Shown piece after piece: positions 1,464-25,588 of a DNA stretch of 64,000 nt. The notes below the pieces were generated by a model. That model was not told the origin of the DNA and made no database searches. It saw only the letters and a list, made by a program, of their open reading frames with translations. Within the stretch, counting starts at the first letter, position 1. Each line of letters begins with the position of its first letter. The stretch is from NCBI GenBank assembly GCA_014650475.1, contig BMVA01000016.1:124001-188000 (forward strand), in the 5' to 3' direction. The stretch comes from Streptomyces albogriseolus. Its GTDB lineage: Bacteria; Actinomycetota; Actinomycetes; Streptomycetales; Streptomycetaceae. Position numbers and translations under genes: made by a program.

Positions 1464-1483
1464 GCGCAGTTCCCCGCGCCCCT
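1464..1483 (+). repeat. copy 1 of a 20-bp intergenic repeat
   Basis: The sequence GCGCAGTTCCCCGCGCCCCT. The same 20 bases recur exactly at 21368-21387, 25370-25389 and 25492-25511, and in reverse complement at 21415-21434, 21498-21517 and 25569-25588. This copy lies between two co-directional genes, 37 nt after the hydrolase stop. Confidence 0.9.
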
Positions 1484-1520
1484 CCGGGCGTGTTGTTCAT
1501 CCGGCGTTTCCATGGTCGGC

Positions 1521-1543
1521 GTAGGTGTGGGGTGCACACCTAC
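1521..1543 (+). promoter_or_regulatory. perfect 8-bp inverted repeat upstream of phoD-like gene
   Basis: GTAGGTGT (1521-1528) and ACACCTAC (1536-1543) flank a 7-nt spacer, ending 8 nt before the GGAGG ribosome binding site at 1552-1556. It is either an operator or a 5'-leader hairpin that could control access to the ribosome binding site. PhoP boxes in Streptomyces are direct repeats, so this is not an obvious PhoP site. Confidence 0.5.
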
Positions 1544-1563
1544 CGACCTACGGAGGCGTACTC

Positions 1564-3129
1564 ATGGCAATCCGTCCGCTGCCCGGCCGTCGCTCCCTGC
1601 TGAAGGGGTCGCTCGCCGCCTCGGCGGGGCTGGCCCTGCCCGCGTTCACCCGGTCGGGGCGCCCCACGGCCGAGTGGGGCGTCCAGACCGGCGACGTCAC
1701 CCGTGACTCCGCGCTGGTGTGGGTGCGGTCGGACCGGCCGGCGCGGATGATCGTCGAGACCTCGGCCACGGAGTCGTTCCGCGACGTACGCCGGATGCGG
1801 GGCCCCTTGATCGGCCCCGGCACCGACTTCACCGGCACCACCCGGCTGCGCGGGCTGCCGCCGGGCGAGCAGATCCACTACCGGGTGCTGCTCGCCGATC
1901 CCGACGACCCGCGCCGTACGAGCGCGCCGGTCGCCGGCGCCTTCCGTACCGTGCCGGACCGGCGGCGGGACGGGGTGCGGTTCGTGTGGTCGGGCGACCT
2001 GGCCGGGCAGGGCTGGGGCATCAACCCGGAGTTCGGCGGCTACCGCATCTTCGACGCGATGGCCCGGCTCGACCCGGACTTCTTCCTGTTCAGCGGGGAC
2101 ACCGTCTACGCCGACGGGCCCATCGCGGCGTCCGCGGAACTGCCGGACGGCAGCCTCTGGCGGAACATCACCACCGAGGAGAAGTCCAAGGTCGCGGAGA
2201 GCCTGGCGGAGTTCCGCGGCGCCTTCCGCTACAACCTGCTGGACGAGCACCTGCGCCGGTTCAACGCCCGCGTCCCGTCGATCGTGCAGTGGGACGACCA
2301 CGAGGTGCGCAACAACTGGTACCCGGGACAGCGGATCGCGGACACCGACACCCGGTACACCGAGAAGAGCGTCGACGTGCTGGCGGCCCGCGCCCGGCGG
2401 GCGTTCGGGGAGTACTTCCCCATGTCGACGCCGCGGCCCGGCGCCCGGGAGGGGCGCGTCCACCGGGTGGTGCGGCAAGGCCCGCTGCTCGACATCTTCG
2501 TGCTGGACATGCGGACGTACCGGAACGCCAACTCGCCCGGCGACCAGACCGTCGACCCGCAGGGCATCCTGGGCCGGGAGCAACTGGACTGGCTGAAGCG
2601 GGAGCTGGCGCGGTCGCGGGCGGTGTGGAAGGTGATCGCCGCCGACATGCCGATCGGCCTGGTCGTGCCCGACACCACCGAGGGCCGCCCGCACGTCGAG
2701 GCGGTGGCGCAGGGCGATCCGGGGGCGCCGCTGGGGCGCGAGCTGCAGATCGCGGAGCTGCTGCGGTTCATCAAGCACCGGAGGATCACCGGGACGGTGT
2801 GGCTGACGGCCGACGTGCACCACACCTCGGCGCAGCACTACCAGCCCGCGCGGGCCGCGTTCGGCGATTTCGAGCCGTTCTGGGAGTTCGTCTCGGGGCC
2901 GCTCAACGCGGGCGCGTTCCCGGCCACGGAGCTGGACGCGACGTTCGGTCCGGAGCGGGTGTGGGTGAAGGCGCCCACCACCGCCAACGTCTCCCCCGCC
3001 GACGGACACCAGTTCTTCGGCGAGGTGGAGATCGACGGCGGCAGCGGCGAACTGACCGTGCGGCTGCGGGAGATGGACGGCACGGTGCTGTTCAGAAAGA
3101 CGCTGCAGCCGGGCCTCGTCGGCCAGTAA
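1564..3129 (+). CDS. Tat-exported PhoD-family alkaline phosphatase/phosphodiesterase
   Basis: 521 residues. The N-terminus has a twin-arginine motif (RRSLLKGS, residues 9-16) followed by an Ala/Leu-rich stretch, so export by Tat is expected. A PhoD_N domain is followed by the metallophosphoesterase core: SGDTVYADG (about 177-185), WDDHEVRNNW (about 244-253) and TADVHHTSAQHY (about 416-427). PhoD enzymes are extracellular Ca/Fe-dependent phosphomono- or diesterases used to scavenge phosphate. The start was set at the ATG preceded by GGAGG (1552-1556, 7-nt spacing), which places the RR motif correctly; an in-frame upstream start at 1525 would bury it. Single-gene unit with its own inverted repeat upstream. 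Confidence 0.93.
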   Translation: MAIRPLPGRRSLLKGSLAASAGLALPAFTRSGRPTAEWGVQTGDVTRDSALVWVRSDRPARMIVETSATESFRDVRRMRGPLIGPGTDFTGTTRLRGLPPGEQIHYRVLLADPDDPRRTSAPVAGAFRTVPDRRRDGVRFVWSGDLAGQGWGINPEFGGYRIFDAMARLDPDFFLFSGDTVYADGPIAASAELPDGSLWRNITTEEKSKVAESLAEFRGAFRYNLLDEHLRRFNARVPSIVQWDDHEVRNNWYPGQRIADTDTRYTEKSVDVLAARARRAFGEYFPMSTPRPGAREGRVHRVVRQGPLLDIFVLDMRTYRNANSPGDQTVDPQGILGREQLDWLKRELARSRAVWKVIAADMPIGLVVPDTTEGRPHVEAVAQGDPGAPLGRELQIAELLRFIKHRRITGTVWLTADVHHTSAQHYQPARAAFGDFEPFWEFVSGPLNAGAFPATELDATFGPERVWVKAPTTANVSPADGHQFFGEVEIDGGSGELTVRLREMDGTVLFRKTLQPGLVGQ

Positions 3130-3166
3130 CGCAGCATTTCGGACAGAAGCGGGCTTTACCCGTCAG

Positions 3167-3209
3167 TCACAGTGCGTTCGTGATCACGAAACACGATTCC
3201 TTCACAGTG
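3167..3209 (+). promoter_or_regulatory. 14-bp palindrome flanked by direct repeats (candidate operator)
   Basis: TTCGTGATCACGAA (3177-3190) is a perfect 14-bp palindrome. The octamer TCACAGTG occurs on both sides, at 3167-3174 and 3202-3209. The composite ends 5 nt before the ATG at 3215, where a repressor would block the ACT-GNAT gene. The binding protein is unknown. Confidence 0.55.
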
Positions 3210-3214
3210 ACGGT

Positions 3215-4483
3215 ATGAGTCGAGACATGTTTGACGTGACGAACGACCGTGACGGAGGGCGCACGCCCCGCTGGAACCCGCTCGCCCGTGCCGCGCGCTG
3301 CGGGGAGGCGCTGCACGCATGGCGGACACGCCGCCACGGCCACGCGCCGCCGGCACACGATACCGGCGGCGCTCCGCCGTCGCCCGAGCCGGCAGCGGTC
3401 GAGAGCGCGCTGTGGCGGATGCGGACGACGGTGCGGGACGAGCCGGGCGCGCTGGCGGCCCTGTGCACGGCGCTGGCCGAGCGGCGGGTCGACATCCTGA
3501 GCCTCCAGACGCACCCGCTGGGCGCGCATACCGTCGACGAGTTCCTGCTGCGCGTGCCGGCCGGCACGGACCTCGTCGCGGCGGTGACCGCGGGCGGGGG
3601 CACGGACACCTGGGCCGAGCGGGCCGACGCCCACGACCTGGTGGACGGCCCGACGCGGATGCTGGGGCTGGCCGCCCGCACCGCGACGGACGCCGCGGAA
3701 CTGCCTCTGGTGCTGCGCCAGTTGCTGGGGCGTTGCACGATCCGCTCCCAGCCCGCCGCGGCGGCCGGCGCCGGAGCGGCGGCCGTGCCGCCGGAGGGCG
3801 TCCTGGAGGACACCGTCATCCGGCTGCGCGACCCTGAGGGCGGCGTCCTCACGGTGGAGCGGCCGTATCTGCCGTTCACCCCCACGGAGTTCGCCCGTGC
3901 CCGGGCGCTGGTGGAGCTGGACGCCCGGCTCGGTCCGCGGATGCCGCGCGGCCGTGACGTGCTGACGCTGTCCGAGGGCGGTCACGTCTCCGTGCGCCGC
4001 GCGGACACCGCCGACCTGGACGCGGCGCGGGCGATGCACGAGCGGTGCTCCGCCGAGACGCTGCGGCGCCGGTACCACGGCCCGGTCGGTGACGCGAGCC
4101 GCTACCTCAACCACCTGCTCAGCCCGCGCTTCGGCCGCACGCTCGCCGCGCAGACCGCGTCCGGCGAGATCGTCGCCCTCGGCCACCTGCTGTGGGACGG
4201 CGACGAGACCGAGGTGGCGCTGATCGTCGAGGACGCGTGGCAGCGGCGGGGCATCGGCGCGGAACTGCTGTCCCGGCTGGTGGGCATGGCGGTCGAGGCG
4301 GACTGCGCCCATGTGTACGCCGTGACGCAGGCGTCCAACACGGGCATGGTCGCCGCGATGCGGGGCCTGGGCCTCCCCCTCGACTACCAGGTCGAGGAGG
4401 GCACCCTCGTCATCACCGCCCGCCTGACCCCCACCCCGGCCGCCCGCACCCCGGAGACCGGCGGGAGGGTCGCCCGCCACTGA
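3215..4483 (+). CDS. ACT-domain / GNAT N-acetyltransferase fusion
   Basis: 422 residues with two recognisable parts. An ACT-like regulatory domain begins near residue 65 (MRTTVRDEPGALAALCTALA) and is followed by a probable second, weaker ACT-like repeat up to about 210. A GNAT fold occupies about 257-405, with the acetyl-CoA loop in EDAWQRRGIGAELLSRL (about 338-354). This suggests an acetyltransferase controlled by a small ligand, most likely an amino acid, as in other ACT-GNAT proteins. Start: ATG 3215 gives the longest sensible product; ATG 3227 is possible and neither has a strong ribosome binding site. A palindrome lies immediately upstream. Confidence 0.85.
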   Translation: MSRDMFDVTNDRDGGRTPRWNPLARAARCGEALHAWRTRRHGHAPPAHDTGGAPPSPEPAAVESALWRMRTTVRDEPGALAALCTALAERRVDILSLQTHPLGAHTVDEFLLRVPAGTDLVAAVTAGGGTDTWAERADAHDLVDGPTRMLGLAARTATDAAELPLVLRQLLGRCTIRSQPAAAAGAGAAAVPPEGVLEDTVIRLRDPEGGVLTVERPYLPFTPTEFARARALVELDARLGPRMPRGRDVLTLSEGGHVSVRRADTADLDAARAMHERCSAETLRRRYHGPVGDASRYLNHLLSPRFGRTLAAQTASGEIVALGHLLWDGDETEVALIVEDAWQRRGIGAELLSRLVGMAVEADCAHVYAVTQASNTGMVAAMRGLGLPLDYQVEEGTLVITARLTPTPAARTPETGGRVARH

Positions 4484-4497
4484 CCCGACGACGGAAA

Positions 4498-4528
4498 ACG
4501 GCCCGGCACGCAGCGCGTGCCGGGCCGT
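4498..4528. terminator. bidirectional hairpin between convergent genes
   Basis: A 14-bp perfect stem, ACGGCCCGGCACGC (4498-4511) with GCGTGCCGGGCCGT (4515-4528), around a 3-nt loop, 14 nt after the stop of the ACT-GNAT gene and 22 nt from the stop of the PLP enzyme on the other strand. Position and symmetry fit a shared terminator. Confidence 0.85.
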
Positions 4529-4549
4529 CCCCCGTCCATGGGCGGTCCG

Positions 4550-5737
4550 TCAGCCCTGGGCCATGGCCTCTGTCCGGGCCGGGTGCGCGGACGGCGTGCC
4601 CAGGGCCTGGTCGAGGTCCGCCCAGAGGTCCTCGACGTCCTCCAGGCCGACCGAGAGGCGGAGCAGGCGGTCGGAGACGCCCGCGTCCCTGCGGTCGTCG
4701 GCGTCGACGATGCGGTGGCTGATGGACGCCGGGTGCTGGATCAGGGAGTCCACGCTGCCGAGGCTCACCGCCGGGGTGATCAGGCGGACGCCGGCGATCA
4801 CCGCGTGCGGGTCGCCGTGCACCTCGAAGGCGACCATCGCGCCGCCGACGCTCGGGTAGTGCACCCGGGCCACGCGCGGGTCCGCGGCGAGGCGGGCCGC
4901 CAGTCCTGCGGCGTTCGCGGACGCCGCCCGTACCCGGACCGGCAGCGTCGACAGGCCGCGCAGCAGCAGGTAGCCGGCCAGCGGATGCAGCACCCCGCCG
5001 GTGGCGAACCGCACCTGCCGCAGCCGCCCGGCGAACTCCTCGTCGCAGGCGACCACACCGGCCAGCACGTCGCCGTGCCCGCCGAGGTACTTGGTGGCGC
5101 TGTGCAGCACCAGCCGCGCCCCCTGCTCGACGGGACGCTGCAGCACCGGCGTGGCGAAGGTGTTGTCGACGAGCAGCGGCACGGAGCCGCAGGCGTGGGC
5201 GACGGCCCGCAGGTCGATCTCGGCGAGCGTGGGGTTGGCGGGCGACTCCACCAGCACCAGTCCGGTGTCCGGGCGGAGCGCGTCGGCGACCCCGGCCGGG
5301 TCGGTCCAGGTGACCTCGGAGCCGAGCAGCCCGGCGGTCAGCAGATGGTCGCTGCACCCGTACAGCGGGCGTACGGCGACGACGTGCCGCAGCCCCATGG
5401 AGCCGCGGACCAGCAGGACGGCGCTGAGCGCGGCCATGCCGCTGGCGAAGGCGACCGCCGACTCGGTGCCCTCCAGACGGGCGAGCGCGGTCTCGAAGCG
5501 TGCGACGGTCGGGTTGCCGAGCCGCCCGTAGACCGGCGGGCCGTCCGGTTCGGCGCCGGTGGTGGCGAAGGCGTCGATGCGCGCGGCCTCGGCCCGGCTG
5601 TCGTAGGAGGGATAGGTGGTGGACAGGTCGATCGGCGGGGCGTGCAGTCCGAGTCCGGCGAGATCGTCCCGGCCGGCGTGCACGGCCTCGGTGGCGAGTG
5701 CTCTGGTGGTGCGTCGCGTGTCCATGCCGTTGTCCAT
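4550..5737 (-). CDS. trans-sulfuration family PLP enzyme (cystathionine gamma-synthase/lyase-like)
   Basis: 395 residues of the Cys/Met-metabolism PLP family. Visible hallmarks: YGRLGNPT near the N-terminus, the VFASGMAAL-type motif (FASGMAALSAVLL), VDNTFATP, and the PLP-binding Lys in SATKYLGGHGDVLAG (near residue 215). Members catalyse gamma-elimination or gamma-replacement on homoserine- or methionine-type substrates; which one cannot be read directly. It is divergent from an Lrp-type regulator with only 60 bp between starts, a common arrangement in which the regulator controls the enzyme in response to an amino acid. ATG at 5737 was used; ATG at 5725 (MDTRRTTRAL) is equally possible. Confidence 0.9.
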   Translation of the reverse strand: MDNGMDTRRTTRALATEAVHAGRDDLAGLGLHAPPIDLSTTYPSYDSRAEAARIDAFATTGAEPDGPPVYGRLGNPTVARFETALARLEGTESAVAFASGMAALSAVLLVRGSMGLRHVVAVRPLYGCSDHLLTAGLLGSEVTWTDPAGVADALRPDTGLVLVESPANPTLAEIDLRAVAHACGSVPLLVDNTFATPVLQRPVEQGARLVLHSATKYLGGHGDVLAGVVACDEEFAGRLRQVRFATGGVLHPLAGYLLLRGLSTLPVRVRAASANAAGLAARLAADPRVARVHYPSVGGAMVAFEVHGDPHAVIAGVRLITPAVSLGSVDSLIQHPASISHRIVDADDRRDAGVSDRLLRLSVGLEDVEDLWADLDQALGTPSAHPARTEAMAQG

Positions 5738-5785
5738 GGCGCACAGGGTGAACACCGGCCGGTTCTGTACGGCCGGATCCCGTGC

Positions 5786-5791
5786 TACGTT
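5786..5791 (+). promoter_or_regulatory. -10 element of a probable leaderless Lrp gene
   Basis: TACGTT lies 6 nt before the ATG at 5798 and there is no Shine-Dalgarno, so transcription should begin at or next to the start codon. The 60-bp divergent gap also contains GGCCGG twice (5747-5752 and 5761-5766), possible half-sites for the regulator. Confidence 0.55.
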
Positions 5792-5797
5792 CGGCCG

Positions 5798-6289
5798 ATG
5801 GCCGAATCTGTCGCACTGGATCCGGTGGACCTCCATCTGCTGCGGCTGTTGCAGAACGACGCCCGGACCACGTACCGGGACCTCGCCGCGCAGGTCGGGG
5901 TCGCACCGTCGACCTGCCTGGACCGGGTGACCCGCCTGCGCCGCTCGGGCGTGATCCTCGGGCACCGCCTGCGGCTGGACCCGGCGAAGCTCGGCCGGGG
6001 TCTGCAGGCGCTGCTGTCGGTACAGGTGAGACCGCACCGGCGGGAGCTGGTGGGGCCGTTCGTGGAGCGGATCCGGGCGCTGCCGGAGTCGCTGACGGTG
6101 TTCCATCTGACCGGTCCGGACGACTATCTGGTGCATGTCGCGGTCGCGGACATGGCGGATCTGCAGCGGCTGGTGCTGGACGAGTTCACCGCCCGGCGGG
6201 AGGTGGCGCGGGTGGAGACGCGGCTGATCTTCCAGCAGTGGGACTGCGGTCCGGTCATGCCGCCTTCGCCCTCGGCTCAATCCGCGTGA
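5798..6289 (+). CDS. Lrp/AsnC family regulator
   Basis: 163 residues: an N-terminal winged helix-turn-helix (about 8-60, ARTTYRDLAAQVGVAPSTC is the HTH) and a C-terminal RAM/ligand domain with the typical GPDDYLVHVAVADM segment (about 107-120). Lrp/AsnC proteins form octamers that bind an amino acid. Its divergent neighbour is a trans-sulfuration enzyme, so a sulfur amino acid or a related substrate is the likely signal; that is inference. Start ATG has no ribosome binding site but a -10 box 6 nt upstream, implying a leaderless mRNA. Confidence 0.92.
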   Translation: MAESVALDPVDLHLLRLLQNDARTTYRDLAAQVGVAPSTCLDRVTRLRRSGVILGHRLRLDPAKLGRGLQALLSVQVRPHRRELVGPFVERIRALPESLTVFHLTGPDDYLVHVAVADMADLQRLVLDEFTARREVARVETRLIFQQWDCGPVMPPSPSAQSA

Positions 6290-6321
6290 CGTGCGGCGGA
6301 CGCCGTACCAGGATGGTCCGC

Positions 6322-8010
6322 ATGTCACCAACCAACAGCGCGCTTCCCCGTCAGGTCGCCGACGCCTATGTCGACGAGCTCATCGCCCTCGATCCGATCA
6401 CCGGGACGTACCTCGGCGTCGAAGGGAGTTCCTCCCGGCTGCCCGATCTCTCGCCCGCCGGTCAGGAGGCGGTCGCCGACCTGCTCCGGGCGACCCTCGC
6501 GCGGCTCGACGAGGCCGAGCGCCTGCCCGGCGCGGACAGCGACGCCGAACGCCGCTGCGCCCGGCTGCTGCGGGAGCGGCTGACCGCCGAACTGGCGGTG
6601 CACGAGGCCGACGAGCATCTGCGCGCGGTGGGCAACCTGGGCACGGTCGCGCACGCGGTGCGCGAGGTGTTCACGGTGACCCCGGCGGAGACGGAGAAGG
6701 ACTGGCGGGCGATCGCGGAGCGGCTGCGCGCGGTCCCTGCCGCGCTGGCCGGGTACCGGGAGTCGCTGGCGCTGGGCCTGGAACGCAAGCTGTACGCCGG
6801 GCCGCGCCCCACGCGGACGTTCGTCGGGCAGCTCGGCGAGTGGGCGGACACCGGCGAGGGCCGCGGCTGGTTCGAGGACTTCGCCGCCGCGGGCCCGGAC
6901 GCGCTGCGCGCGGAGCTGGACGAGGCCGCCCGCGCGGCGACCGCCGCCGTGGCGGAGCTGCGGGACTGGCTGCGGGACGTGTACGCCCCGGCGGTCGAGG
7001 GCGCGCCGGACACGGTGGGGCGGGAGCGCTACGCCCGCTGGTCGCGCTACTACAACGGCACCGACCTGGACCTGGACGAGGCGTACGCGTACGGCTGGTC
7101 CGAGTACTTCCGGCTGCTGGGCGAGATGAGGAAGGAGGCCGAGAAGATCCTGCCGGGGGCCGGGACCCCGTGGGTGGCGCTGGCCCACCTCGACGAGCAC
7201 GGCCGGCACATCGAGGGCGTGGACGAGGTCCGCGACTGGCTGCAGGGCCTGATGGACCAGGCGATCGACGCCCTGGACGGCACGCACTTCGACCTGGCCG
7301 AGCGGGTGCGGAAGGTGGAGTCGCGGATCGCCCCGGCGGGCAGCGCGGCGGCGCCGTACTACACGCCGCCGTCGGAGGACTTCTCCCGGCCGGGCTGCAC
7401 CTGGCTGCCCACGATGGGCATGACCCGCTTCCCGGTCTACGACCTGGTGTCCACCTGGTACCACGAGGGCGTCCCCGGCCATCACCTCCAGCTGGCGCAG
7501 TGGGTGCACGTGGCGGAGAACCTCTCCCGCTACCAGGCCACCGTCGGCATGGTCAGCGCCAACTGCGAGGGCTGGGCGCTGTACGCGGAGCGGCTGATGG
7601 ACGAGCTGGGCTTCCTCACGGACGCGGAGCAGCGGCTCGGGTACCTGGACGCGCAGATGATGCGGGCGACCCGGGTCATCGTCGACATCGGCATGCACCT
7701 GGAGCTGGAGATCCCCGCGGACTCGCCGTTCCACCCGGGTGAGCGGTGGACGCCGGAGCTGGCGCAGGAGTTCTTCGGCGCGCACAGCAGCCGCCCGGCG
7801 GACTTCGTGGAGAGCGAGCTGACCCGCTATCTCACGATTCCCGGCCAGGCCATCGGCTACAAGCTCGGCGAGCGGGCCTGGCTGCTGGGCCGGGAGAAGG
7901 CCCGCGAGCGGCACGGCGACGCCTTCGACCTGAAGGCCTGGCACATGGCCGCGCTGTCCCAGGGGTCGCTGGGCCTGGACGACCTGGTGGACGAACTGGC
8001 GGCGCTGTAG
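6322..8010 (+). CDS. DUF885 family putative metallopeptidase
   Basis: 562 residues matching DUF885 in length and layout. The conserved HExGxPGH-type motif is seen as WYHEGVPGHHLQ (about 378-389), followed by NCEGWALYAERL (about 414-425), whose Glu could be the third metal ligand. The family resembles zinc peptidases but most members have no defined substrate. No signal peptide or membrane segment. ATG 6322 was chosen over ATG 6313; a weak -10-like CAGGAT (6309-6314) lies 7 nt upstream of 6322. Transcribed towards the SDR gene on the opposite strand with 7 nt between stops. Confidence 0.88.
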   Translation: MSPTNSALPRQVADAYVDELIALDPITGTYLGVEGSSSRLPDLSPAGQEAVADLLRATLARLDEAERLPGADSDAERRCARLLRERLTAELAVHEADEHLRAVGNLGTVAHAVREVFTVTPAETEKDWRAIAERLRAVPAALAGYRESLALGLERKLYAGPRPTRTFVGQLGEWADTGEGRGWFEDFAAAGPDALRAELDEAARAATAAVAELRDWLRDVYAPAVEGAPDTVGRERYARWSRYYNGTDLDLDEAYAYGWSEYFRLLGEMRKEAEKILPGAGTPWVALAHLDEHGRHIEGVDEVRDWLQGLMDQAIDALDGTHFDLAERVRKVESRIAPAGSAAAPYYTPPSEDFSRPGCTWLPTMGMTRFPVYDLVSTWYHEGVPGHHLQLAQWVHVAENLSRYQATVGMVSANCEGWALYAERLMDELGFLTDAEQRLGYLDAQMMRATRVIVDIGMHLELEIPADSPFHPGERWTPELAQEFFGAHSSRPADFVESELTRYLTIPGQAIGYKLGERAWLLGREKARERHGDAFDLKAWHMAALSQGSLGLDDLVDELAAL

Positions 8011-8017
8011 GGCGGGT

Positions 8018-8863: not shown

Positions 8864-8918
8864 GATCCCCATGATGGGCCGCGTGACCGGCCCGGGCACG
8901 CGAATAACGGCGCCCGGC

Positions 8919-9431: not shown

Positions 9432-9439
9432 GGCGGAGA

Positions 9440-9445
9440 AACCTA
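9440..9445 (-). promoter_or_regulatory. -10 element for the Imm21-like gene
   Basis: TAGGTT on the minus strand, 8 nt before the ATG at 9431, with no ribosome binding site between them. Suggests a leaderless or nearly leaderless transcript. Confidence 0.45.
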
Positions 9446-9476
9446 TCGGCTCGATCCCCTTACCGGACGGGCGGGT

Positions 9477-9953: not shown

Positions 9954-10047
9954 GACAGAGAAACTACGGGCGCGGGCGGCGGTCCTGAAGGGACGAAGCC
10001 CGGTGCGGGGCTTGCCCCGCCGGGGATTTCCCTGCTACTTCTCGGCG

Positions 10048-10494: not shown

Positions 10495-10507
10495 CCCGGC
10501 CGCCCCG

Positions 10508-15355: not shown

Positions 15356-15361
15356 CCGGCC

Positions 15362-16637: not shown

Positions 16638-16643
16638 GAGGCG

Positions 16644-17238: not shown

Positions 17239-17291
17239 ACCGTCGGTTTGAAACGCCCCTTCGCGACCGGTGCCGGACGGACGGGTGACGC

Positions 17292-17297
17292 CATAAT
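17292..17297 (+). promoter_or_regulatory. -10 element of the pobA-like gene
   Basis: CATAAT, 6 nt before the ATG at 17304, with no ribosome binding site in the gap. Confidence 0.55.
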
Positions 17298-17303
17298 GGC
17301 GCG

Positions 17304-18524: not shown

Positions 18525-18549
18525 TGCCGGGCGGTCCGCCCCGGCCGGA

Positions 18550-19113
18550 TCAGGCGGCGGGCCTGCCCAGCCCCTCCAGCACGACCGCGCCCGGCAGTTC
18601 CGCGAACGCCTTGCCCGGCACCAGCAGCTTCCCGCGCCGCCGCCCGCTGCCGACCAGCACGTACGGCAGGTCCACCACGGCCGCGTCCACCAGCACGGGC
18701 CAGCCCTCGGGCAGCCCGACAGGGGTGATGCCGCCGTACTCCATGCCGGTCTCCCCCGTCGCCGTGTCCATCGGCGCGAACGACGCCTTGCGGACGCCGA
18801 GGTGGCGGCGCACCACCCCGTTCACGTCGGCCCGGGTGGTGGACAGCACGACGCACGCGGCGAGCGTGGACTCGCCGCCGCGCTTGCCCGCCACCACCAC
18901 GCAGTTCGCCGACCGCTCCAGCAGGTCGCTGCCGTAGTGCTCGACGAAGACGGCGGTGTCGGCCCAGCGCGGGTCCGTCTCGACGTAGAGGATCTGGTCG
19001 GCGGGGACGCCGCCGCTCCAGCCGCGGACCGCTTCCGCGACGGGGGCGGTCAGCTCGTCGAGGCAGTCGGGGGCGGGGGTGGCCCGGTCGAAGTCTCCGA
19101 TGGGTGCGCGCAT
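18550..19113 (-). CDS. YbaK/ProX-type aminoacyl-tRNA deacylase
   Basis: 187 residues with the YbaK fold: CVVVAGKRGGE, SFAPMDTATGETGMEYGGIT and the signature GGITPVGLP (about 127-135), then YVLVGSGRRRGKLLVPG. These proteins hydrolyse mischarged aminoacyl-tRNAs (for example Cys-tRNA-Pro) in trans. Convergent with the hydroxylase gene, with 25 nt between stops containing a GC-rich imperfect hairpin. No Shine-Dalgarno; -10 box 6 nt upstream. Confidence 0.9.
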   Translation of the reverse strand: MRAPIGDFDRATPAPDCLDELTAPVAEAVRGWSGGVPADQILYVETDPRWADTAVFVEHYGSDLLERSANCVVVAGKRGGESTLAACVVLSTTRADVNGVVRRHLGVRKASFAPMDTATGETGMEYGGITPVGLPEGWPVLVDAAVVDLPYVLVGSGRRRGKLLVPGKAFAELPGAVVLEGLGRPAA

Positions 19114-19119
19114 GGCGGC

Positions 19120-19125
19120 ACGGTA
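19120..19125 (-). promoter_or_regulatory. -10 element of the leaderless ybaK-type gene
   Basis: TACCGT on the minus strand, 6 nt before the ATG at 19113. Confidence 0.55.
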
Positions 19126-19156
19126 ACAGCGGGCGGTGCGGGTGCCGAAGGGTGTC

Positions 19157-19729
19157 TCACTGCACGGGCGGCACCGACACCGTCATGAACATCCGCACCG
19201 GCTCGTCCCCGGCGTTGCCGTACGTGTGGGGCGTGTTGGCCTCGAAGGAGGCGCTGGCGCCGGCCGGCACCCGGTGCTCCGTCCCGTCGACGGTGAGCGT
19301 CAGCTCCCCGGCGGTGACATGGACGAGTTCCACCGTGCCGGCGGGGTGCGGGTCGGAGTCGCTGCTCTCCCCCGGCATCAGCCGCCACTCCCACATCTCC
19401 AGCGGTCCCGGCGCCTCGGTGCCGGCGAGCAGCCGGCTGTAGCTGCCGCGCCCGGTCTCCCACAGACGGACCGTCTGGTCGGCGGGGACGACCCGCACCT
19501 GCGGGCCCCGCTCGTAGTCGAGCAGCGTGGGCACGCTGACGCCGAGCGCGTCGCCGATCTTGACGATCGTGCCGATGCTCGGGTTGGTGCGGGCCTGTTC
19601 GATCTGGATGAGCATGCCGCGGCTGACGCCCGCCCGGGCCGCGAGCATGTCCAGGGTGAAGCCGCGCTCGGTGCGCCAGCGCTTGACGTTGCGCGCCAGG
19701 GACCGGGTCAGCAGGTCGAGGTCCGCCAC
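19157..19729 (-). CDS. XRE-family regulator with C-terminal cupin
   Basis: 190 residues from a GTG. HTH_XRE domain at about 10-65 (LDMLAARAGVSRGMLIQIEQ contains the HTH) and a cupin_2 fold at about 105-185 with GTVELVHVTAGELTLTV and FEANTPHTYGNAG. One-component sensors of this build usually regulate an adjacent amine, alcohol or transport gene; here no obvious target is next door. ACGGA just upstream is a weak ribosome binding site. Its promoter region contains a tandem 12-mer and a separate inverted repeat, both plausible self-regulatory sites. Confidence 0.9.
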   Translation of the reverse strand: MADLDLLTRSLARNVKRWRTERGFTLDMLAARAGVSRGMLIQIEQARTNPSIGTIVKIGDALGVSVPTLLDYERGPQVRVVPADQTVRLWETGRGSYSRLLAGTEAPGPLEMWEWRLMPGESSDSDPHPAGTVELVHVTAGELTLTVDGTEHRVPAGASASFEANTPHTYGNAGDEPVRMFMTVSVPPVQ

Positions 19730-19743
19730 GTTCCGTCCGTTTC

Positions 19744-19767
19744 GACTGTCCGGATGACTGTCCGGAT
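19744..19767 (-). repeat. tandem 12-bp direct repeat upstream of the XRE-cupin gene
   Basis: GACTGTCCGGAT occurs twice head to tail (19744-19755 and 19756-19767) with no mismatch, 15 nt upstream of the GTG. Spacing of slightly more than one helical turn suits a dimer or two adjacent monomers of the XRE protein. Confidence 0.6.
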
Positions 19768-19810
19768 GCCCGGGGCCGGCCCGTGCGGCTGCGGTGCGGT
19801 GCACCCGGTG

Positions 19811-19826
19811 GTACACCGCACTGTAC
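19811..19826 (-). promoter_or_regulatory. inverted repeat GTACA-N6-TGTAC
   Basis: On the minus strand GTACA and TGTAC flank 6 nt, 81 nt upstream of the XRE-cupin start. Candidate operator or part of the promoter. Confidence 0.4.
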
Positions 19827-19855
19827 TGCGAGGCCGGGCGGGTACGGCGCGGGCG

Positions 19856-20689
19856 TCAGGCGCCGGGTTCCACCTCGGCCAGCCGCGCGGCGGCGCTCGC
19901 GTCCTTCGGCTCGGCCTCGTCCAGCAGCCCGGCCTCGTCCAGCTCGGCGAGGCGGGCCGCGCTCTCCTCGTCGAGCTGCGACAGCGCCCGCAGCTGGTCG
20001 GGCGTGATGTCGTCGGGGAGCGGCACGGGCGGCGGGGTGCGCAGCGGCGGCTGCCAGCCCTCGTCGGGCGTCCAGCGGCGTACGACCCGGGCGGGCGCGC
20101 CCGCGACCACGCAGTGGTCCGGCACCTCGCCCCGGACGACCGCGCCCGCGGCCACCACCACGTTCCGCCCGACGCGGGCGCCCGGCAGGATCACCGCGCC
20201 GGTGCCGATCCAGCAGCCGGGGCCGATCTCCACCGGCTCCATCCGCGGCCACTGCCTGCCGATGGGCTCGTGCGGGTCGTCGTAGGAGTGGTTGGTGGAG
20301 GTGACGTAGACGTACGGGCCGAAGTAGCAGTCGCTGCCGATGGTCACGGTGGTGTCGGCGATGACGTGGCTGCCGCGGCCGAGGACGACGCCGTCGCCGA
20401 TGCGCAGGATGGGCTCGGGGCCAAGGTCGAGGCCGGGCATGAGTCCGGCGGTGAGGGTGACCTGCTCGCCGACGATGCAGTGCGCGCCGATCCGGATCCA
20501 GGGCTCGCCGAAGATCGTGCCGAGCGGGAAGGCGAGTCTGGTACCTGTTCCCATCGCGCCGAAGCGGAAGCGGCCGGGCTGTTCGGCGGTCACCGAGCCC
20601 GTGCGCTGCACCCAGGCCCAGCCCGCGTGGACCGCGCGCTGGGCGAGGCGGCGCGGCCAGTACGAGAACGTGTTCTTGCGCTTCGGCAC
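19856..20689 (-). CDS. left-handed beta-helix acyltransferase
   Basis: 277 residues with many hexapeptide repeats between about 55 and 215 (IRIGAHCIVGEQVTL, VVLGRGSHVIADTTV, VEIGPGCWIGTGAVIL, ARVGRNVVVAAGAVV, VPDHCVVAGAPARVV) and the active-site segment TSTNHSYDDPHEP. It belongs to the maltose/galactoside O-acetyltransferase-like group; acceptor unknown, often a sugar of the envelope or a glycan. The C-terminal 60 residues are Glu/Ala-rich and variable. GTG 20689 (VPKRKNTFSYW) was chosen with GGTGAGCG upstream; GTG 20722 is an alternative. Divergent from another hexapeptide protein, the carbonic anhydrase at 20796. Confidence 0.87.
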   Translation of the reverse strand: MPKRKNTFSYWPRRLAQRAVHAGWAWVQRTGSVTAEQPGRFRFGAMGTGTRLAFPLGTIFGEPWIRIGAHCIVGEQVTLTAGLMPGLDLGPEPILRIGDGVVLGRGSHVIADTTVTIGSDCYFGPYVYVTSTNHSYDDPHEPIGRQWPRMEPVEIGPGCWIGTGAVILPGARVGRNVVVAAGAVVRGEVPDHCVVAGAPARVVRRWTPDEGWQPPLRTPPPVPLPDDITPDQLRALSQLDEESAARLAELDEAGLLDEAEPKDASAAARLAEVEPGA

Positions 20690-20795
20690 CCGCTCACCGT
20701 AGTCCGCGGGCGCGACGGGCACGGCCCGGCGCCCCTGTGATCTTCACCCCACCGGGTGGCGTACCGTTCCCCCGACGTTCGACTAGGAGGCGACG

Positions 20796-21326
20796 ATGAC
20801 GCACCAGGCTCTGATCACCGGTATCGGCGGCAGGGAGCCGCGGATCGACGAGGGGGCGTTCGTGGCGCCCACGGCGAGCGTGATCGGCGACGTGACGCTG
20901 CACGCCGGGGCCAGCGTCTGGTACGGCGCGGTGCTGCGCGGCGACGTGGAGTCGATCGCGGTGGGCGCGAGCAGCAACGTCCAGGACAACTGCACGCTGC
21001 ACGCCGACCCCGGGTTCCCGGTCACCGTGGGCGAGCGGGTGTCCGTCGGGCACAACGCGGTGGTGCACGGGGCGACCGTCGAGGACGACTGCCTGATCGG
21101 TATGGGCGCGACGGTCCTGAACGGCGCGGTGATCGGCGCGGGCTCGCTCGTCGCCGCGCAGGCGCTGGTGCCGCAGGGGATGCGGGTGCCGCCGGGCTCC
21201 CTGGTCGCGGGCGTCCCGGCGAAGGTGCGGCGGGAGCTGACGCGGGAGGAGCGGGAGGGGCTGACCCTCAACGGGACGATGTACGCGGAGCTGGCGGCGG
21301 CGCATCGGGATCAGCACGGGGGCTGA
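20796..21326 (+). CDS. gamma-class carbonic anhydrase family protein
   Basis: 176 residues of hexapeptide beta-helix. The metal ligands expected for gamma carbonic anhydrases are present: His69 (NCTLHAD), His86 and His91 (VGHNAVVHG). RGDVESIAVG and QDNCTLHAD are family signatures. It may hydrate CO2 or be one of the many inactive homologues; the histidines favour metal binding. AGGAGG 7 nt upstream fixes the ATG. Confidence 0.9.
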   Translation: MTHQALITGIGGREPRIDEGAFVAPTASVIGDVTLHAGASVWYGAVLRGDVESIAVGASSNVQDNCTLHADPGFPVTVGERVSVGHNAVVHGATVEDDCLIGMGATVLNGAVIGAGSLVAAQALVPQGMRVPPGSLVAGVPAKVRRELTREEREGLTLNGTMYAELAAAHRDQHGG

Positions 21327-21367
21327 GACACGGTCGCATGTCGGCCTGCGGGCCGGTGGGGCCGTTC

Positions 21368-21517
21368 GCGCAGTTCCCCGCGCCCCTTCGGGGCGCCGGT
21401 CGGGCAGCCCGCCCAGGGGCGCGGGGAACTGCGCGACCAGCCCCCACCGGCCCGCACGGGCGGCTGCGGGATCGCCGGGTTCGTCCTGGCGCCCCGAAGG
21501 GGCGCGGGGAACTGCGC
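21368..21517. repeat. three copies of the 20-bp repeat between convergent genes
   Basis: Copies at 21368-21387 (plus) and at 21415-21434 and 21498-21517 (reverse complement). The plus copy and the first minus copy can pair over at least 20 bp into a long stem-loop with a 27-nt loop. The block fills the 210-bp gap between the convergent carbonic anhydrase and DedA genes, so a bidirectional terminator is the simplest reading. Confidence 0.75.
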
Positions 21518-21536
21518 GGCCGGCCCCCTGCCGGGG

Positions 21537-22187
21537 TCAGTCGCCCACGGAGGCCGGGGCCGGTGCCGTGGCCGTCGTGGCCGCCGCCGTCTTCTTCGCC
21601 TTGCGCTTCAGGACCAGCATCGAGGTCAGACCGATCAGCACCGCCAGCACCAGGCCGAGCCACGAGAACCGCTTGAGCCAGGACTCGGCGACGATGCCCA
21701 CGTAGTAGATGACCGCCGTCGTGCCGCCCGCCCAGAGGATGCCGCCGAGGACGTTGGCGGTGAGGAACTTCCAGTACGGCATGTGCAGCACGCCCGCGAG
21801 CGGGCCCGCGAAGATCCGCAGCAGGGCGACGAAGCGGCCGAAGAAGACCGCCCACATGCCCCACTTCTGGAAGGACCGCTCGGCGGTGGCGATGTGCGCC
21901 TCGCTGAAGTGGCGGGGGAACTTCCCGCCCAGCCAGGCCAGCAGCGGGCGTCCGCCCTTGCGGCCGATGGCGTAGCCGATCGAGTCGCCGATGATCGCGC
22001 CGGCGGTGGCGCAGGCGCCGAGGATCACCGGGTCGATGTCGCCGTGCTGGGAGGCGAGCAGCGCCGAGGAGACCAGGATGATCTCGCCGGGCAGCGGGAT
22101 GCCCAGGCTCTCCAGCCCGATGACGATGCCCACCAGCGCGTACACGGCGACCGCGGGTACGGTCTCGAGCCATTCCTGGACGTGCAA
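21537..22187 (-). CDS. DedA family membrane protein
   Basis: 216 residues with about five hydrophobic segments. The DedA/VTT signature is complete: ESLGIPLPGEIIL near the N-terminus, IGDSIGYAIGRKGG and FFGRFVALLRIFAGPLAGVL. DedA proteins flip lipids such as undecaprenyl phosphate or phosphatidylethanolamine. The start appears to be a TTG at 22187 preceded by GGAGG; no ATG or GTG fits the N-terminus. Lys/Ala-rich cytoplasmic tail. Divergent from a cNMP-binding protein with a 222-bp gap in which I see only a CTGGAGA direct repeat near 22350-22370. Confidence 0.88.
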   Translation of the reverse strand: MHVQEWLETVPAVAVYALVGIVIGLESLGIPLPGEIILVSSALLASQHGDIDPVILGACATAGAIIGDSIGYAIGRKGGRPLLAWLGGKFPRHFSEAHIATAERSFQKWGMWAVFFGRFVALLRIFAGPLAGVLHMPYWKFLTANVLGGILWAGGTTAVIYYVGIVAESWLKRFSWLGLVLAVLIGLTSMLVLKRKAKKTAAATTATAPAPASVGD

Positions 22188-22409
22188 CGCCTCTTCCTCC
22201 GGTCCGCCGATGCCGTGTGCGTGCGTGTGCGCCCCGTCGGGGGGCACGGTCGGGAAGCCTACCGGGTCGGGGTGATCCGTCCGGTCGGGGCCGTATGCCG
22301 TGCCGCGGGGGCCGGTCGGCCCATGCGGGCGGCGGCGGACGGGGGGACTCTGGAGACAGCCACTGGAGATACCGACGACGGCCCACACTTCGCTCCCGGG
22401 AGGCCCGCC

Positions 22410-22874
22410 ATGTTCGCTCCTACGTCGCCCAGCCTGCCGCGTGCCCTGCCCGCAGAGCACCGGGAGCGGCTCATGGCCGCCGCGCGCGAGGTGTCCTTCC
22501 CGCAGGGGACCCGGTTGTTCGAGGAGGGCGGCCGGGCCGACCGGTTCTGGGTCATCCGGACCGGCACCGTGGAGCTGGACATGCGGGTGCCGGGCCGCCG
22601 GCCCGTCACCATCGAGCGGCTCGGGCACAACGAGCTGATCGGCTGGTCCTGGCTGTTCCGCCCGCACGTCTGGCACCTGGGCGCCGAGGCGGCCACCCCG
22701 GTACGGGCGTACGAGTTCGACGCCGCGTCCGTCCTCGCCCTGTGCGAGAGGGACGCGGAGTTGGGCCGGGAGGTGACCCGCTGGGTGGGCGAGGTGGTGG
22801 CCCACCGGCTGCACTCCGCCCGGGTCCGGCTGCTCGACCTGTTCGGTCCGTACGGCGCCGGCGCCGGCGTGTGA
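22410..22874 (+). CDS. cyclic-nucleotide-binding domain protein without HTH
   Basis: 154 residues. A CAP_ED/cNMP-binding fold covers about 18-120 (FPQGTRLFEEGGRADRFWVI, ERLGHNELIGWSWLF). Unlike Crp/Fnr regulators there is no C-terminal winged helix, so it probably does not bind DNA; a sensor or structural role is more likely. The phosphate-binding RxA arginine of true cAMP binders is not obvious. GGGAGG at 22398-22403 marks the ATG. Confidence 0.85.
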   Translation: MFAPTSPSLPRALPAEHRERLMAAAREVSFPQGTRLFEEGGRADRFWVIRTGTVELDMRVPGRRPVTIERLGHNELIGWSWLFRPHVWHLGAEAATPVRAYEFDAASVLALCERDAELGREVTRWVGEVVAHRLHSARVRLLDLFGPYGAGAGV

Positions 22875-22940
22875 GGGAGGCCGCCCGCGCTTGCTACGTC
22901 CCCGTCAAAGGGCAGTGACCGAATCGTGTCAGGGCGCGGC

Positions 22941-22946
22941 TAGGGT
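22941..22946 (+). promoter_or_regulatory. -10 element upstream of the QQP-repeat protein
   Basis: TAGGGT, 8 nt before the ATG at 22955, with no Shine-Dalgarno. Confidence 0.45.
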
Positions 22947-22954
22947 GACTGCCC

Positions 22955-23965
22955 ATGTGGCCAGGACAGCAGCCGCCCGGGGGCGAGCAGAACCCGCAGT
23001 CGAACAATCCGTACCAGCAGCCGGGGTACCAGCAGCCGAATCCTTACCAGCAACCCGGCTATCAGCAGCCGAACCCGTACCAGCAGCAGCCGCAGTGGGG
23101 CGAACCGTCCACCGTGGGCATGCCGCAGCCCGGGGACGGCGGCGGTGGCGGGAACCGTACGAAGCTGGTGGCGATCATCGCGGCGACGGCGGTGGTCGTG
23201 GCCGCGGGCGTGACCGGTTTCCTGGTGCTCGGCGGCGACAAGGACGACGAGGCCGACGGCAAGAAGCCCGCCAAGCCGAGCGCGACCGCGTCCAAGGACG
23301 CCTCCGCCGATCCGGCCCCCTCGGCCTCGGGGGGCAACCCGCGCGGCGGCGAGGGCGAGAAGGCGACGATCCCGGGCTGGCAGGTCGTCGTGAACACCCG
23401 CTTCGGCACCAAGTTCGACGTCCCGGCCGACTGGGAGATCGAGACGCCGGACACCTCCGTGGGCTTCGAATGGGAGGAGAAGAACGGTGAGATGGGCCGC
23501 ACCACCGTCACCGCCCCCGCCTATCTGAAGTCCAAGTGGTGCACCGCCGACGAGAACAAGGACGGCCGCACCGAGGACACCGCGCTCGCCACCGCCGGCA
23601 CCCGCGGCGAGAACGGCGCGAAGGACACCAAGGAGGCGGCCGAGACCCGCGTGCCGTGGTGGATCTTCGGCGGTTACACGCAGCCCGACAAGAAGAGCGT
23701 GAAGTACGACGCGCCGAAGCCGTACACCACGAAGTCCGGGGTCACCGGGCATGTGGCCACGGCGCATTCGGAGGGCACGCCGCAGAAGGGCAAGTGCGAC
23801 AGCGAGGGCAAGGCGATCACGTTCGCGTTCAAGAACGGCGCGGGCGACTTCATCACCTGGAACCTGTACGGCGCGGCGGGCGTGAAGGACGAGATCCCCG
23901 AGGCGACCGTGCAGAAGATCCTCAGCACGGTCCGGCTGACCGAGGAAGCGCCGACGGAGTCGTGA
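22955..23965 (+). CDS. membrane-anchored protein with QQP repeats
   Basis: 336 residues. Residues 1-65 are Pro/Gln/Tyr-rich with tandem GYQQPNPYQQP units; one transmembrane helix follows at about 69-93 (VAIIAATAVVVAAGVTGFLV); then a charged Lys/Ala/Ser linker and a soluble extracellular domain (about 125-336) with two cysteines far apart that could form a disulfide. Topology: low-complexity segment inside, domain outside. Proteins of this build are common in Streptomyces; function unknown. The DNA encoding the repeats (about 23007-23100) is itself imperfectly tandem. Confidence 0.85.
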   Translation: MWPGQQPPGGEQNPQSNNPYQQPGYQQPNPYQQPGYQQPNPYQQQPQWGEPSTVGMPQPGDGGGGGNRTKLVAIIAATAVVVAAGVTGFLVLGGDKDDEADGKKPAKPSATASKDASADPAPSASGGNPRGGEGEKATIPGWQVVVNTRFGTKFDVPADWEIETPDTSVGFEWEEKNGEMGRTTVTAPAYLKSKWCTADENKDGRTEDTALATAGTRGENGAKDTKEAAETRVPWWIFGGYTQPDKKSVKYDAPKPYTTKSGVTGHVATAHSEGTPQKGKCDSEGKAITFAFKNGAGDFITWNLYGAAGVKDEIPEATVQKILSTVRLTEEAPTES

Positions 23966-23969
23966 CGGT

Positions 23970-23995
23970 CCGGGCCCGCACATGAGCGGGCCCGG
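23970..23995 (+). terminator. hairpin terminator after the QQP-repeat gene
   Basis: CCGGGCCCGC (23970-23979) pairs perfectly with GCGGGCCCGG (23986-23995) across a 6-nt loop, 4 nt after the stop codon. The loop contains an ATG in frame with the next gene; because it sits in a terminator it was rejected as that gene's start. Confidence 0.8.
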
Positions 23996-24038
23996 AACCC
24001 ATTTGGCAAGTCGGCCCCCTCCCGGCGATAGTCACCGG

Positions 24039-25331
24039 GTGCCGACCTCCGCCGACCGCCGCCGCCCCGCCTGGGCCGGCCGCAACTACACGCTGCTGAC
24101 CGCCTCCGCCGTGGTGACCAACCTGGGCAGCCACGGCGCGCTGATCGCCGCCGCGTTCGCCGTGCTGGCCGCGGGCGGCGACGGCGGGGACGTGGGCCTG
24201 GTGGCCGCCGCCCGCACCCTGCCGCTCGTGCTGTTCCTGCTGATCGGCGGCGCCGTGGCGGACCGGCTGCCGCGGCACCGGGTGATGGTCGCGGCCAACG
24301 TCCTGAACTGCGTCTCGCAGGCCGCGTTCGCCGCGCTGGTCCTCGCGGGCGAGCCGCGACTGTGGCAGATGATGCTGCTCAGCGCGCTCGGCGGCACCGG
24401 GCAGGCGTTCTTCAACCCCGCCGCCGAGGGCATGCTGCTCTCCTCCGTCGACGGCGAGCAGGCCGGCCGCGCGTTCGCGGTGTTCCGGATGGCGATGCAC
24501 GGGGCGACCCTGGGCGGCGCCGCGCTCGGCGGGGCGATGGTCGCCGCGATCGGGCCGGGCTGGGTGCTGGCGGCGGACGCGGCGGCCTTCGCGGTCGCGG
24601 CGGTGCTGCGGACGTTCCTCGACGTGAAGCACATACCGCCGCGCGAGCCGGGGGGCGGGATGCTCGCCGATCTGCGGGACGGCTGGCGGGAGTTCACCGG
24701 CCGGCCGTGGCTGTGGGGCATCGTCGTGCAGTTCTCCGTCGCCAACGCGGTCGTCGGCGCGGCCGACGCGGTCTACGGTCCGCTCGTCGCCCGGGACCAC
24801 CTGGGCGGGGCGGCCCCCTGGGGTGTCGCGCTGGCCTTCTTCGGCGGCGGCACGGTGGCGGGCGCGCTGCTGATGACCCGCTGGCAGCCGCGCCGTCTGC
24901 TGCTGGTGGGCACCCTGTGCGTGTTCCCGCTGGCGCTGCCGTCCGCCGCGCTCGCGGTGCCCGTGCCGGTGGCGGTGCTGTGCGCGGTGATGTTCCTGAC
25001 GGGGCTGTCCGTGGAGGTGTTCGGCGTCTCCTGGATGACCGCGCTGCACCAGGAGATACCCGAGGAGAAGCTGTCCCGGGTGTCCGCCTACGACTGGTTC
25101 GGCTCGGTCGCCCTGGTCCCGGCGGCGATGGCCCTCGCGGGGCCGGCGGAGTCGGCGTTCGGCCGCCCGGAGGCGCTGTGGGGCTGCGCGGCGCTGGTCG
25201 TCGTGGTGACGGCGGCGGTCCTGACGGTCCCGGACGTCCGCAATCTGCGCCGCCGCACGAAGCAGGTCACGGCGGTGCCCGCACCGACGCTCGGCGCGGA
25301 CGCCCCGCTCTCGGCGAGGGAACAGGGCTGA
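24039..25331 (+). CDS. major facilitator superfamily transporter
   Basis: 430 residues with 10-12 hydrophobic helices. GGAVADRLPRHRVMVAANV (about 65-83) is the loop-2 MFS signature, and the family resembles the MFS_3/enterobactin-exporter type, hinting at efflux of a drug or siderophore; substrate unknown. GTG 24039 was chosen because the earlier ATG at 23982 lies in the loop of the preceding terminator. Basic C-terminal tail. Ends in front of a dense repeat block, convergent with the next gene. Confidence 0.85.
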   Translation: MPTSADRRRPAWAGRNYTLLTASAVVTNLGSHGALIAAAFAVLAAGGDGGDVGLVAAARTLPLVLFLLIGGAVADRLPRHRVMVAANVLNCVSQAAFAALVLAGEPRLWQMMLLSALGGTGQAFFNPAAEGMLLSSVDGEQAGRAFAVFRMAMHGATLGGAALGGAMVAAIGPGWVLAADAAAFAVAAVLRTFLDVKHIPPREPGGGMLADLRDGWREFTGRPWLWGIVVQFSVANAVVGAADAVYGPLVARDHLGGAAPWGVALAFFGGGTVAGALLMTRWQPRRLLLVGTLCVFPLALPSAALAVPVPVAVLCAVMFLTGLSVEVFGVSWMTALHQEIPEEKLSRVSAYDWFGSVALVPAAMALAGPAESAFGRPEALWGCAALVVVVTAAVLTVPDVRNLRRRTKQVTAVPAPTLGADAPLSAREQG

Positions 25332-25351
25332 GCCCCTGTGACCGACCCGCG

Positions 25352-25588
25352 GCCCGGCGGGGGCTGAGCGCGCAGTTCCCCGCGCCCCTGAAGGGGCGGG
25401 CACCACCGTCGCCTTCCAGGGGACCCGGGGACCCCTGAGGGGGGCGGCGCCACCGTCGCCCTCCAACACCACCGCCCGGCGGGGGCTGAGCGCGCAGTTC
25501 CCCGCGCCCCTGAAGGGGCGGGCACCACCGTCGCCTTCCAGGCGGGGCGGCGCCACCGTCGCCCTCCAAGGGGCGCGGGGAACTGCGC
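25352..25588. repeat. composite repeat block with three more 20-bp copies
   Basis: A 69-bp unit is present twice without mismatch (25352-25420 and 25474-25542), each time containing one plus-strand 20-mer (25370-25389, 25492-25511). A second 26-bp unit is also present twice (25441-25466 and 25544-25569). A reverse-complement 20-mer closes the block at 25569-25588. The arrangement is A-B-A-B followed by an inverted copy, filling the gap between convergent genes. It looks like a local duplication of a terminator-like element. Confidence 0.85.

Follow-up and report, generated by a model that had tools for sequence, protein, structure and literature searches.

A stretch of 64,000 nucleotides of the Streptomyces albogriseolus genome (contig BMVA01000016.1, positions 124,001 to 188,000; the entire stretch is called the window below) contains seven exact copies of the 20-bp sequence GCGCNGTTCCCCGCGCCCCY, which is the core of a repeat found at gene ends in Streptomyces and related genera. 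With moderate confidence, we propose that this is a repeat of the Streptomycetaceae akin to repetitive extragenic palindromic (REP) sequences and bacterial interspersed mosaic elements (BIMEs), that it does without the REP transposase, that it provides a hairpin at gene 3′ ends irrespective of its orientation, and that its core is kept nearly exact by a putative sequence-specific factor.

The S. albogriseolus genome (8.07 Mb in 66 contigs) has 140 exact copies of the core, 78 on the plus strand and 62 on the minus strand, and none of the reversed pattern. Counting the 20-mer across the genus, which the initial annotation had recommended as a check, revealed at least one exact copy in 110 of 199 genomes, with a maximum of 728 (G059), and no exact copy in the other 89. 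Across an order-wide set, 114 of 197 genomes carry it, all of them confined to one family and to two genera of six. Named carriers belong to Streptomyces, including S. violaceoruber NRRL S-981 (L112), Kitasatospora, Streptacidiphilus, and Actinacidiphila (at least 119 stretches among the matches listed). Every one of the 35 genomes at least 88% identical to a gene of S. albogriseolus is a carrier, by a hand count among the matches listed; beyond these relatives, both empty and very copy-rich genomes occur. Similar sequences are also present in 10 plasmid records, all from Streptomyces, and no phage record matched the 51-nt consensus of the element.

The element is depleted from genes and divergent gaps and is found preferentially in convergent gaps and at gene 3′ ends, in either orientation. 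Profiles were built from 107 of the 140 exact copies, taken with their flanks, and from 162 further copies of named species. Wholly intergenic positions account for 102 of the 107 own copies, with three overlapping a called gene end and two lying inside genes. By type of gap, the 106 own copies with both neighbors divide into 54 convergent, 46 tandem, 5 divergent, and 1 inside, and those of other species (n = 139) into 65, 57, 14, and 3, respectively; for comparison, of the window's intergenic bases, 18% lie in convergent gaps and 30% in divergent ones. Copies scattered inside genes, or a lack of enrichment between convergent genes, had been named at the outset as observations that would speak against a terminator or REP-like element, and neither was seen. 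In tandem gaps, the copy is closer to the 3′ end of the preceding gene in 34 of 46 own cases and in 44 of 57 cases from other species, the median distance from that end being 53.5 nt for the 22 own sense copies and 83.5 nt for the 24 antisense ones. Over three sets of copies in tandem gaps (112 copies), the core is in the sense orientation 56 times and antisense 56 times.

The repeat unit consists of a loose left arm of about 28 nt, the core, and a variable right arm, and the own and other-species profiles agree in this. The left arm, with the consensus GNCGGSTGCGGGYCGGTGGKGGCTGGTC among own copies, holds 0.5 to 1.3 bits at most positions, and own left arms have a mean pairwise identity of 53%, versus 33% for distant flanks. 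The right arm opens with Gs complementary to the 3′ half of the core, CCCC(GCGC)CCC, such that a stem of at least 6 bp can be formed in 71% of the 107 own copies versus 15% when right arms are shuffled, and in 51% of the 162 copies from other species versus 10%. An alternative beginning of the right arm with an A run (AAA in the first seven bases) is found in 19% of other-species copies and 1% of own copies, and some of these then carry a separate hairpin and a T run (e.g., L102, by eye). Doublets within 250 bp are frequent, comprising 23 tail-to-tail, 12 head-to-head, and 50 direct pairs, with recurring spacings of 22 to 23 (4/23) and 46 to 48 (7/23) in the tail-to-tail class and of 83 to 85 (4/12) and 95 to 98 (3/12) in the head-to-head class, the recurrence being judged by counting.

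Taking these findings together, anatomy and placement fit a 3′-end hairpin acting from both sides, with convergent genes needing such ends twice. The right arm and the 3′ half of the core could form a GC hairpin in DNA or RNA, whichever way they are read, and either this single-copy hairpin or the stem of at least 20 bp made by an inverted pair may help to end transcripts or shield their 3′ ends. We propose that, because of this help, the element is tolerated and retained behind stop codons and in convergent gaps and is purged from promoters. The bidirectional terminator that had been the original best guess is compatible with the 3′-end position, the indifference to orientation, and the right-arm hairpin; termination itself we infer from the sequence. 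In the available text of PMC6742748 and PMC8269248, Streptomyces intrinsic terminators, those with U-less hairpins included, likewise place a GC hairpin after the stop codon. The stems and median distances given above put the hairpin of our element close behind the stop codon in the same way, and no U-tract follows it in the profile of the 107 copies. Among mapped Streptomyces 3′ ends, the same sources count 194 of 1,640 as U-rich (PMC6742748) and distinguish 353 structured ends without a U-tract, 182 structured ends with one, and 892 less structured ends (PMC8269248). Unlike our element, the terminators in these texts are described by structure and U-richness and not by a fixed 20-mer.

The constancy of the core needs more than folding, and it is for this reason that we propose a reader. 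At up to two mismatches, the own genome has 173 matches against 3 for the control, with about 82% exact; the initial annotation's perfect conservation holds inside the window and is marked, though short of absolute, in the genome at large. Near copies first looked absent because the reversed-pattern control is high at three mismatches (42 in G000); at two mismatches, where this control falls to 3, about 30 near copies remain, and absolute invariance of the core was dropped on that account. Over the 40 genomes with at least 50 exact copies, the exact share of copies within two mismatches ranges, after subtraction of the control, from about 26% (G037 and G109) to about 95% (G001 and G122). The changes are unevenly placed: position 5 is altered in 13 and position 20 in 12 of the 36 single-mismatch copies in the fetched DNA, some of which are possibly copies of each other. 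A relaxed pattern permitting changes at positions 3, 5, 15, and 20 alone, which admits just 7 out of 60 conceivable single changes, recovers 90 copies in G026, 56 exact and 34 changed, with 17 changes at position 5, 18 at position 20 (2 copies at both), 1 at position 15, and 0 at position 3 (hand counts). In eight genomes, chosen mostly for a low exact share, the same pattern captures 43 to 83% of the copies with one or two mismatches. G109 has a particular mix of core versions, with 310 exact copies, 1021 by the relaxed pattern, and about 1,200 at up to two mismatches. The concentration of changes at positions 5 and 20 suggests sequence-specific reading, and their unevenness looks like that expected if most positions of the site are read and unlike plain decay. 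Hence, we postulate a factor that would read most core positions, leaving 5 and 20 free, and would thereby keep the core near-exact; the same putative factor would be the likeliest agent of the element's copying and turnover.

A long form of the element also exists, in which AGTTC of the core is swapped for about 30 nt with a 27-nt hairpin unit that is sometimes in tandem. Its 21-mer marker is present in 54 of the 199 same-genus genomes and absent from the own genome. A bolder and more tentative reading is that the element might constitute a DNA signal across the Streptomycetaceae, having a putative reader, some 18 fixed bases, genome-specific shares of variants at two positions, and the long form as a second version; by analogy with uptake sequences, biased recombination or copying would have spread it at gene ends.

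The seven copies of the window, for which the chance expectation was a mean of 0.05 matches and a maximum of 1 in 100 shuffles, matched exactly in the places and on the strands first reported, and a scan of the 64 kb added none at one to three mismatches. Together with two of the arms, they are as follows.

1464..1483, plus strand: core copy 1, in the tandem gap between the alpha/beta-hydrolase gene (597-1427, plus) and the PhoD-like phosphatase gene (1564-3129, plus)
21368..21387, plus strand: core copy 2, the left half of a tail-to-tail pair in the convergent gap between the genes for a hexapeptide-repeat protein (plus) and a VTT-domain protein (minus)
21388..21397, plus strand: right arm of copy 2, TCGGGGCGCC, in which GGGGCGC could base-pair with the core's GCGCCCC around a three-base TTC loop (by reading the sequence)
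21415..21434, minus strand: core copy 3, the right half of the pair with copy 2, 47 bp beyond it
21435..21462, minus strand: left arm of copy 3, about 28 nt on the minus strand, delimited by the flank profile
21498..21517, minus strand: core copy 4, in the same convergent gap as copies 2 and 3, adjoining the 3′ end of the minus-strand gene 21537-22247
25370..25389, plus strand: core copy 5, in the convergent gap after the MFS transporter gene (24039-25331, plus)
25492..25511, plus strand: core copy 6, repeating copy 5 in direct orientation at a distance of 122 bp, with the flanks mostly duplicated along with the core
25569..25588, minus strand: core copy 7, in the orientation opposite to copy 6 at a distance of 77 bp, adjoining the 3′ end of the minus-strand gene 25619-26464

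The gene boundaries used here are independent calls by a codon-usage finder, and they give the same gap limits as the initial annotation, 21327-21536 and 25332-25618, both convergent, with the copy at 1464 in a tandem gap; all seven copies are thus intergenic and six of the seven lie between convergent genes. The neighboring genes are ordinary according to Pfam, encoding the alpha/beta-hydrolase, PhoD-like phosphatase, hexapeptide-repeat, VTT-domain, and MFS transporter proteins listed, and one further neighbor has no Pfam match at 1e-5. All 18-mers present at least three times in the window are parts of this element. Folding recovered the stem of at least 20 bp predicted earlier for copies in opposite orientation, with the inverted pair at 21360-21440 reaching −67.8 kcal/mol (z, −7.5) and that at 25485-25595 reaching −86.6 kcal/mol (z, −7.7), and no shuffle being as low in either case. 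For copies 2 and 3 as a pair, folding prefers the long stem between the copies over copy 2's own right-arm hairpin.

Sites of the element turn over between species. Relative to G132, in which the flanking genes are 92 to 96% identical, one window site persists, another has been rearranged, and that at 21327-21536 is empty. G132 has a core at the place matching window copy 1; at 21327-21536, there are 200 bp between the aligned flanks versus 31 bp in G132, the filling is unrelated, and a clean insertion with target duplication is not definable from this comparison. For the two convergent window gaps, no core was found at up to three mismatches in 20 loci (12 and 8) of other relatives. The 28 best-matching loci for the first gap comprise 6 with an exact core, 2 whose core has one or two mismatches, and 20 lacking any within two; the long form is seen by eye in four of seven inspected core-empty loci. 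Two relatives without the element at one convergent gap (L247 and L248) have an ordinary long hairpin there instead (by eye). Twenty-one pairs of loci from different genomes have a core at the same gap, and of 18 orthologous pairs compared by strand, 13 have the same orientation and 5 the opposite one; the pair L199/L114 is opposite by this measure. Left arms at 18 orthologous gaps with a shared exact core are 0.32 to 0.93 identical (mean, 0.63, using the best pair where a locus has several copies), compared with 0.54 (standard deviation, 0.15) for random pairs. Because the orthologous arms are just somewhat more alike than random ones, the shared sites may be either old or re-filled.

Among known kinds of element, the present one works most like REP/BIME sequences and like paired uptake sequences that double as terminators; it departs from REP sequences in their defining tag and transposase. 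In the available text of PMC3116915 and PMC3733652, the REP sequences, BIMEs, and REP doublets forming hairpins (REPINs) of enterobacteria and pseudomonads are short, extragenic, and hairpin-forming, often have more than 100 copies, and occur as inverted doublets and direct arrays with turnover among relatives. Our element shares the many short extragenic copies and the inverted doublets at preferred spacing, as well as the direct arrays, the ability to form hairpins, and the turnover among relatives. It differs in having no GTAG tag, in needing no Y1 transposase, in having one loose arm, and in a 20-bp core that is far more constant than the arms and identical in several genera. GTAG is found within 30 nt of 3 of 107 own copies and 11 of 162 others, in no fixed column; CGTC, the tetranucleotide that marks a stem foot in CGTC-type REP sequences, is found within the same distance in 47 of 107 and 74 of 162, its best single column (10/107 and 25/162) lying inside the left arm. 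The Y1_Tnp domain has no match at an E value of 0.001 in the own genome and none in 23 of the 40 genomes with at least 50 copies, including the richest, G059. It is present in 17 of these 40 rich genomes, in 19 of the 89 empty ones, and in 66 of all 199 (hand tally), being somewhat commoner in the rich. Transposition by Y1_Tnp or REP-associated tyrosine transposases (RAYTs) was rejected as the cause of copy number on the grounds of these absences, and, judging from the domain searches, the transposase that usually spreads REP sequences is excluded as a general explanation. The REP-like label given at first therefore describes the habit of the element well (140 copies, intergenic sites, inverted doublets, and recurring spacings) and is wrong in the strict sense. 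As a separate observation, the Y1_Tnp domain, which is of the IS200/IS605 type, has up to 12 matches per genome (G145).

Several points weigh against our proposal. A plain terminator would not require an exact sequence, and no trans-acting factor was found for the element in this analysis. With regard to the hairpin, 29% of own copies are without a 6-bp stem, the left arm adds no folding beyond shuffled sequence, and a U-tract was not found, T reaching at most 0.30 per column from +27 to +60 in the profile of 107 copies. With regard to the core, G026 has 22 further copies within two mismatches that fall outside the relaxed pattern (112 in total; control, 1). A 475.5-kb stretch of G132, which is the contig matching the window and was picked regardless of most of its copies, has 8 copies with one or two mismatches versus 7 exact ones, and both comparable own clusters outside the window (L074 and L078) have decayed in G132; in view of these two observations, individual copies are not under strict selection throughout. 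The exact copies of this stretch are also too few to judge a gap preference (occupied gaps: 2 of 69 convergent, 2 of 178 tandem, and 1 of 100 divergent), and the positional counts given above cover copies detected through their exact core, with clustered ones treated as independent though they are not.

The best of the alternatives, which we nevertheless consider doubtful, is a purely structural bidirectional intrinsic terminator, whose shared sequence would reflect common descent or recent duplication alone. It would account for the complementarity of the right arm, for the position at 3′ ends, and for the ordinary hairpins at the same gap in the two relatives noted above. However, the core is far more conserved than the arms (left-arm identity, 0.53), the 20-mer is identical across genera, and its changes are focused on two positions, and structure alone demands neither such identity nor such a focus.

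A chromosomal site for a DNA-binding protein of the nucleoid, segregation, or replication, confined to intergenic places by the harm it would do in genes and promoters, appears unlikely to us. In its favor are the equal numbers of sense and antisense copies in tandem gaps and the distribution in G093, a single 8.27-Mb contig, for which 100 of 147 copies are listed: these comprise 56 on the plus and 44 on the minus strand, with no clear bias (hand count), and number 3, 15, 28, and 43 per successive Mb over the first four, making the listed end of the contig copy-poor. The lack of an exact copy in 89 of the 199 genomes of the genus is hard to reconcile with a basic chromosome function, and such a site would leave the right-arm hairpin and the paired copies unexplained.

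We give little credence to a DNA-transfer signal like the DNA uptake sequence of Neisseria or the uptake signal sequence of Haemophilus, which would spread by biased uptake or recombination and whose inverted pairs would act as terminators. In the available text of PMC1852404, PMC1590033, and PMC2397512, the uptake sequences of Neisseria and the Pasteurellaceae have a near-exact short core, a copy number varying with lineage, and terminator-like inverted pairs at gene ends. Our element has such a core, a genome-dependent copy number, and inverted pairs at gene ends, and both the genome-specific variant shares, as in G109, and the greater density toward the chromosome center among the listed copies of G093 would suit a transfer signal. 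Unlike uptake sequences, our element has a longer core, flanked on one side by a loose arm of about 28 nt, and it is rarely inside genes, with just 2 of 107 copies within called ones. Uptake signals are common in coding DNA too, and we know of no sequence-selective DNA uptake in Streptomyces.

Slightly less probable again is an RNA-level site for a chaperone, a ribonuclease, or a small RNA. The antisense strand of the core can form the hairpin GCGCGG-GGAA-CUGCGC with a GNRA-type loop, and a hairpin inside the invariant core is the sole structure returned by RNAalifold; because the core is invariant, no covariation can be read from it. Rfam 15 has no match in the window and, across seven loci with elements or long forms, none at the element, the one hit above the gathering score being an L31 leader about 115 nt from the L102 core. 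The RNA-chaperone site suggested earlier is not favored because the core is equally often sense and antisense in tandem gaps. Least probable, and already largely refuted, is a REP or REPIN mobilized by a REP-associated tyrosine transposase, which would explain the copy number, intergenic sites, and inverted doublets but is contradicted by the absence of a GTAG tag and by the lack of a Y1_Tnp match in the own genome and in 23 of 40 rich ones.

Streptomyces genomes are heavily mined for antibiotics, and a gene-end repeat of up to 728 exact copies is unnamed in the one open-access library that was searched: no published description of the element was found there, with most of the subscription literature lying outside that search. 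Nor is Streptomyces mentioned in the available main text of PMC2267715 or PMC3733652. If the element described here does end transcripts, as we propose, it would allow 3′ ends to be annotated directly and would supply engineering with a natural part. Should it have a dedicated reader, its patchy occurrence over the 199 genomes, with 89 empty and others holding hundreds of copies, would make the comparison of carriers with noncarriers a direct route to that factor.

Some minor observations concern the sequence and the variants of the element. The core stretch AGTTCCCCGCGCC also occurs in what we take to be the type I-E repeat of the clustered regularly interspaced short palindromic repeats (CRISPR) of Escherichia coli, and a text search of the literature with AGTTCCCCGCGC returned CRISPR papers; the overlap of AGTTCCCCGCGCC with the CRISPR repeat is probably due to chance. 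At six own loci (L016, L019, L033, L043, L060, and L065), the hairpin GGGGGCTTCGCCCCCGGACCCCC or a near-identical one replaces the usual left arm (by eye), which has the look of another family of repeats attached to the core. In G016, the gap that corresponds to 25332-25618 (L256; G016:C2:819800-822800) has the same neighboring genes and is enlarged by about 1.6 kb, with similar sequence at either end of the added DNA (by eye). Long forms with two or three tandem 27-bp units, GCGGCGGAGCCGCAYATCGACACAGCC, and the usual arms are found at L304 (G165), L305 and L309 (G096), and L307 (G150); these units are variable-number hairpin repeats within the element.

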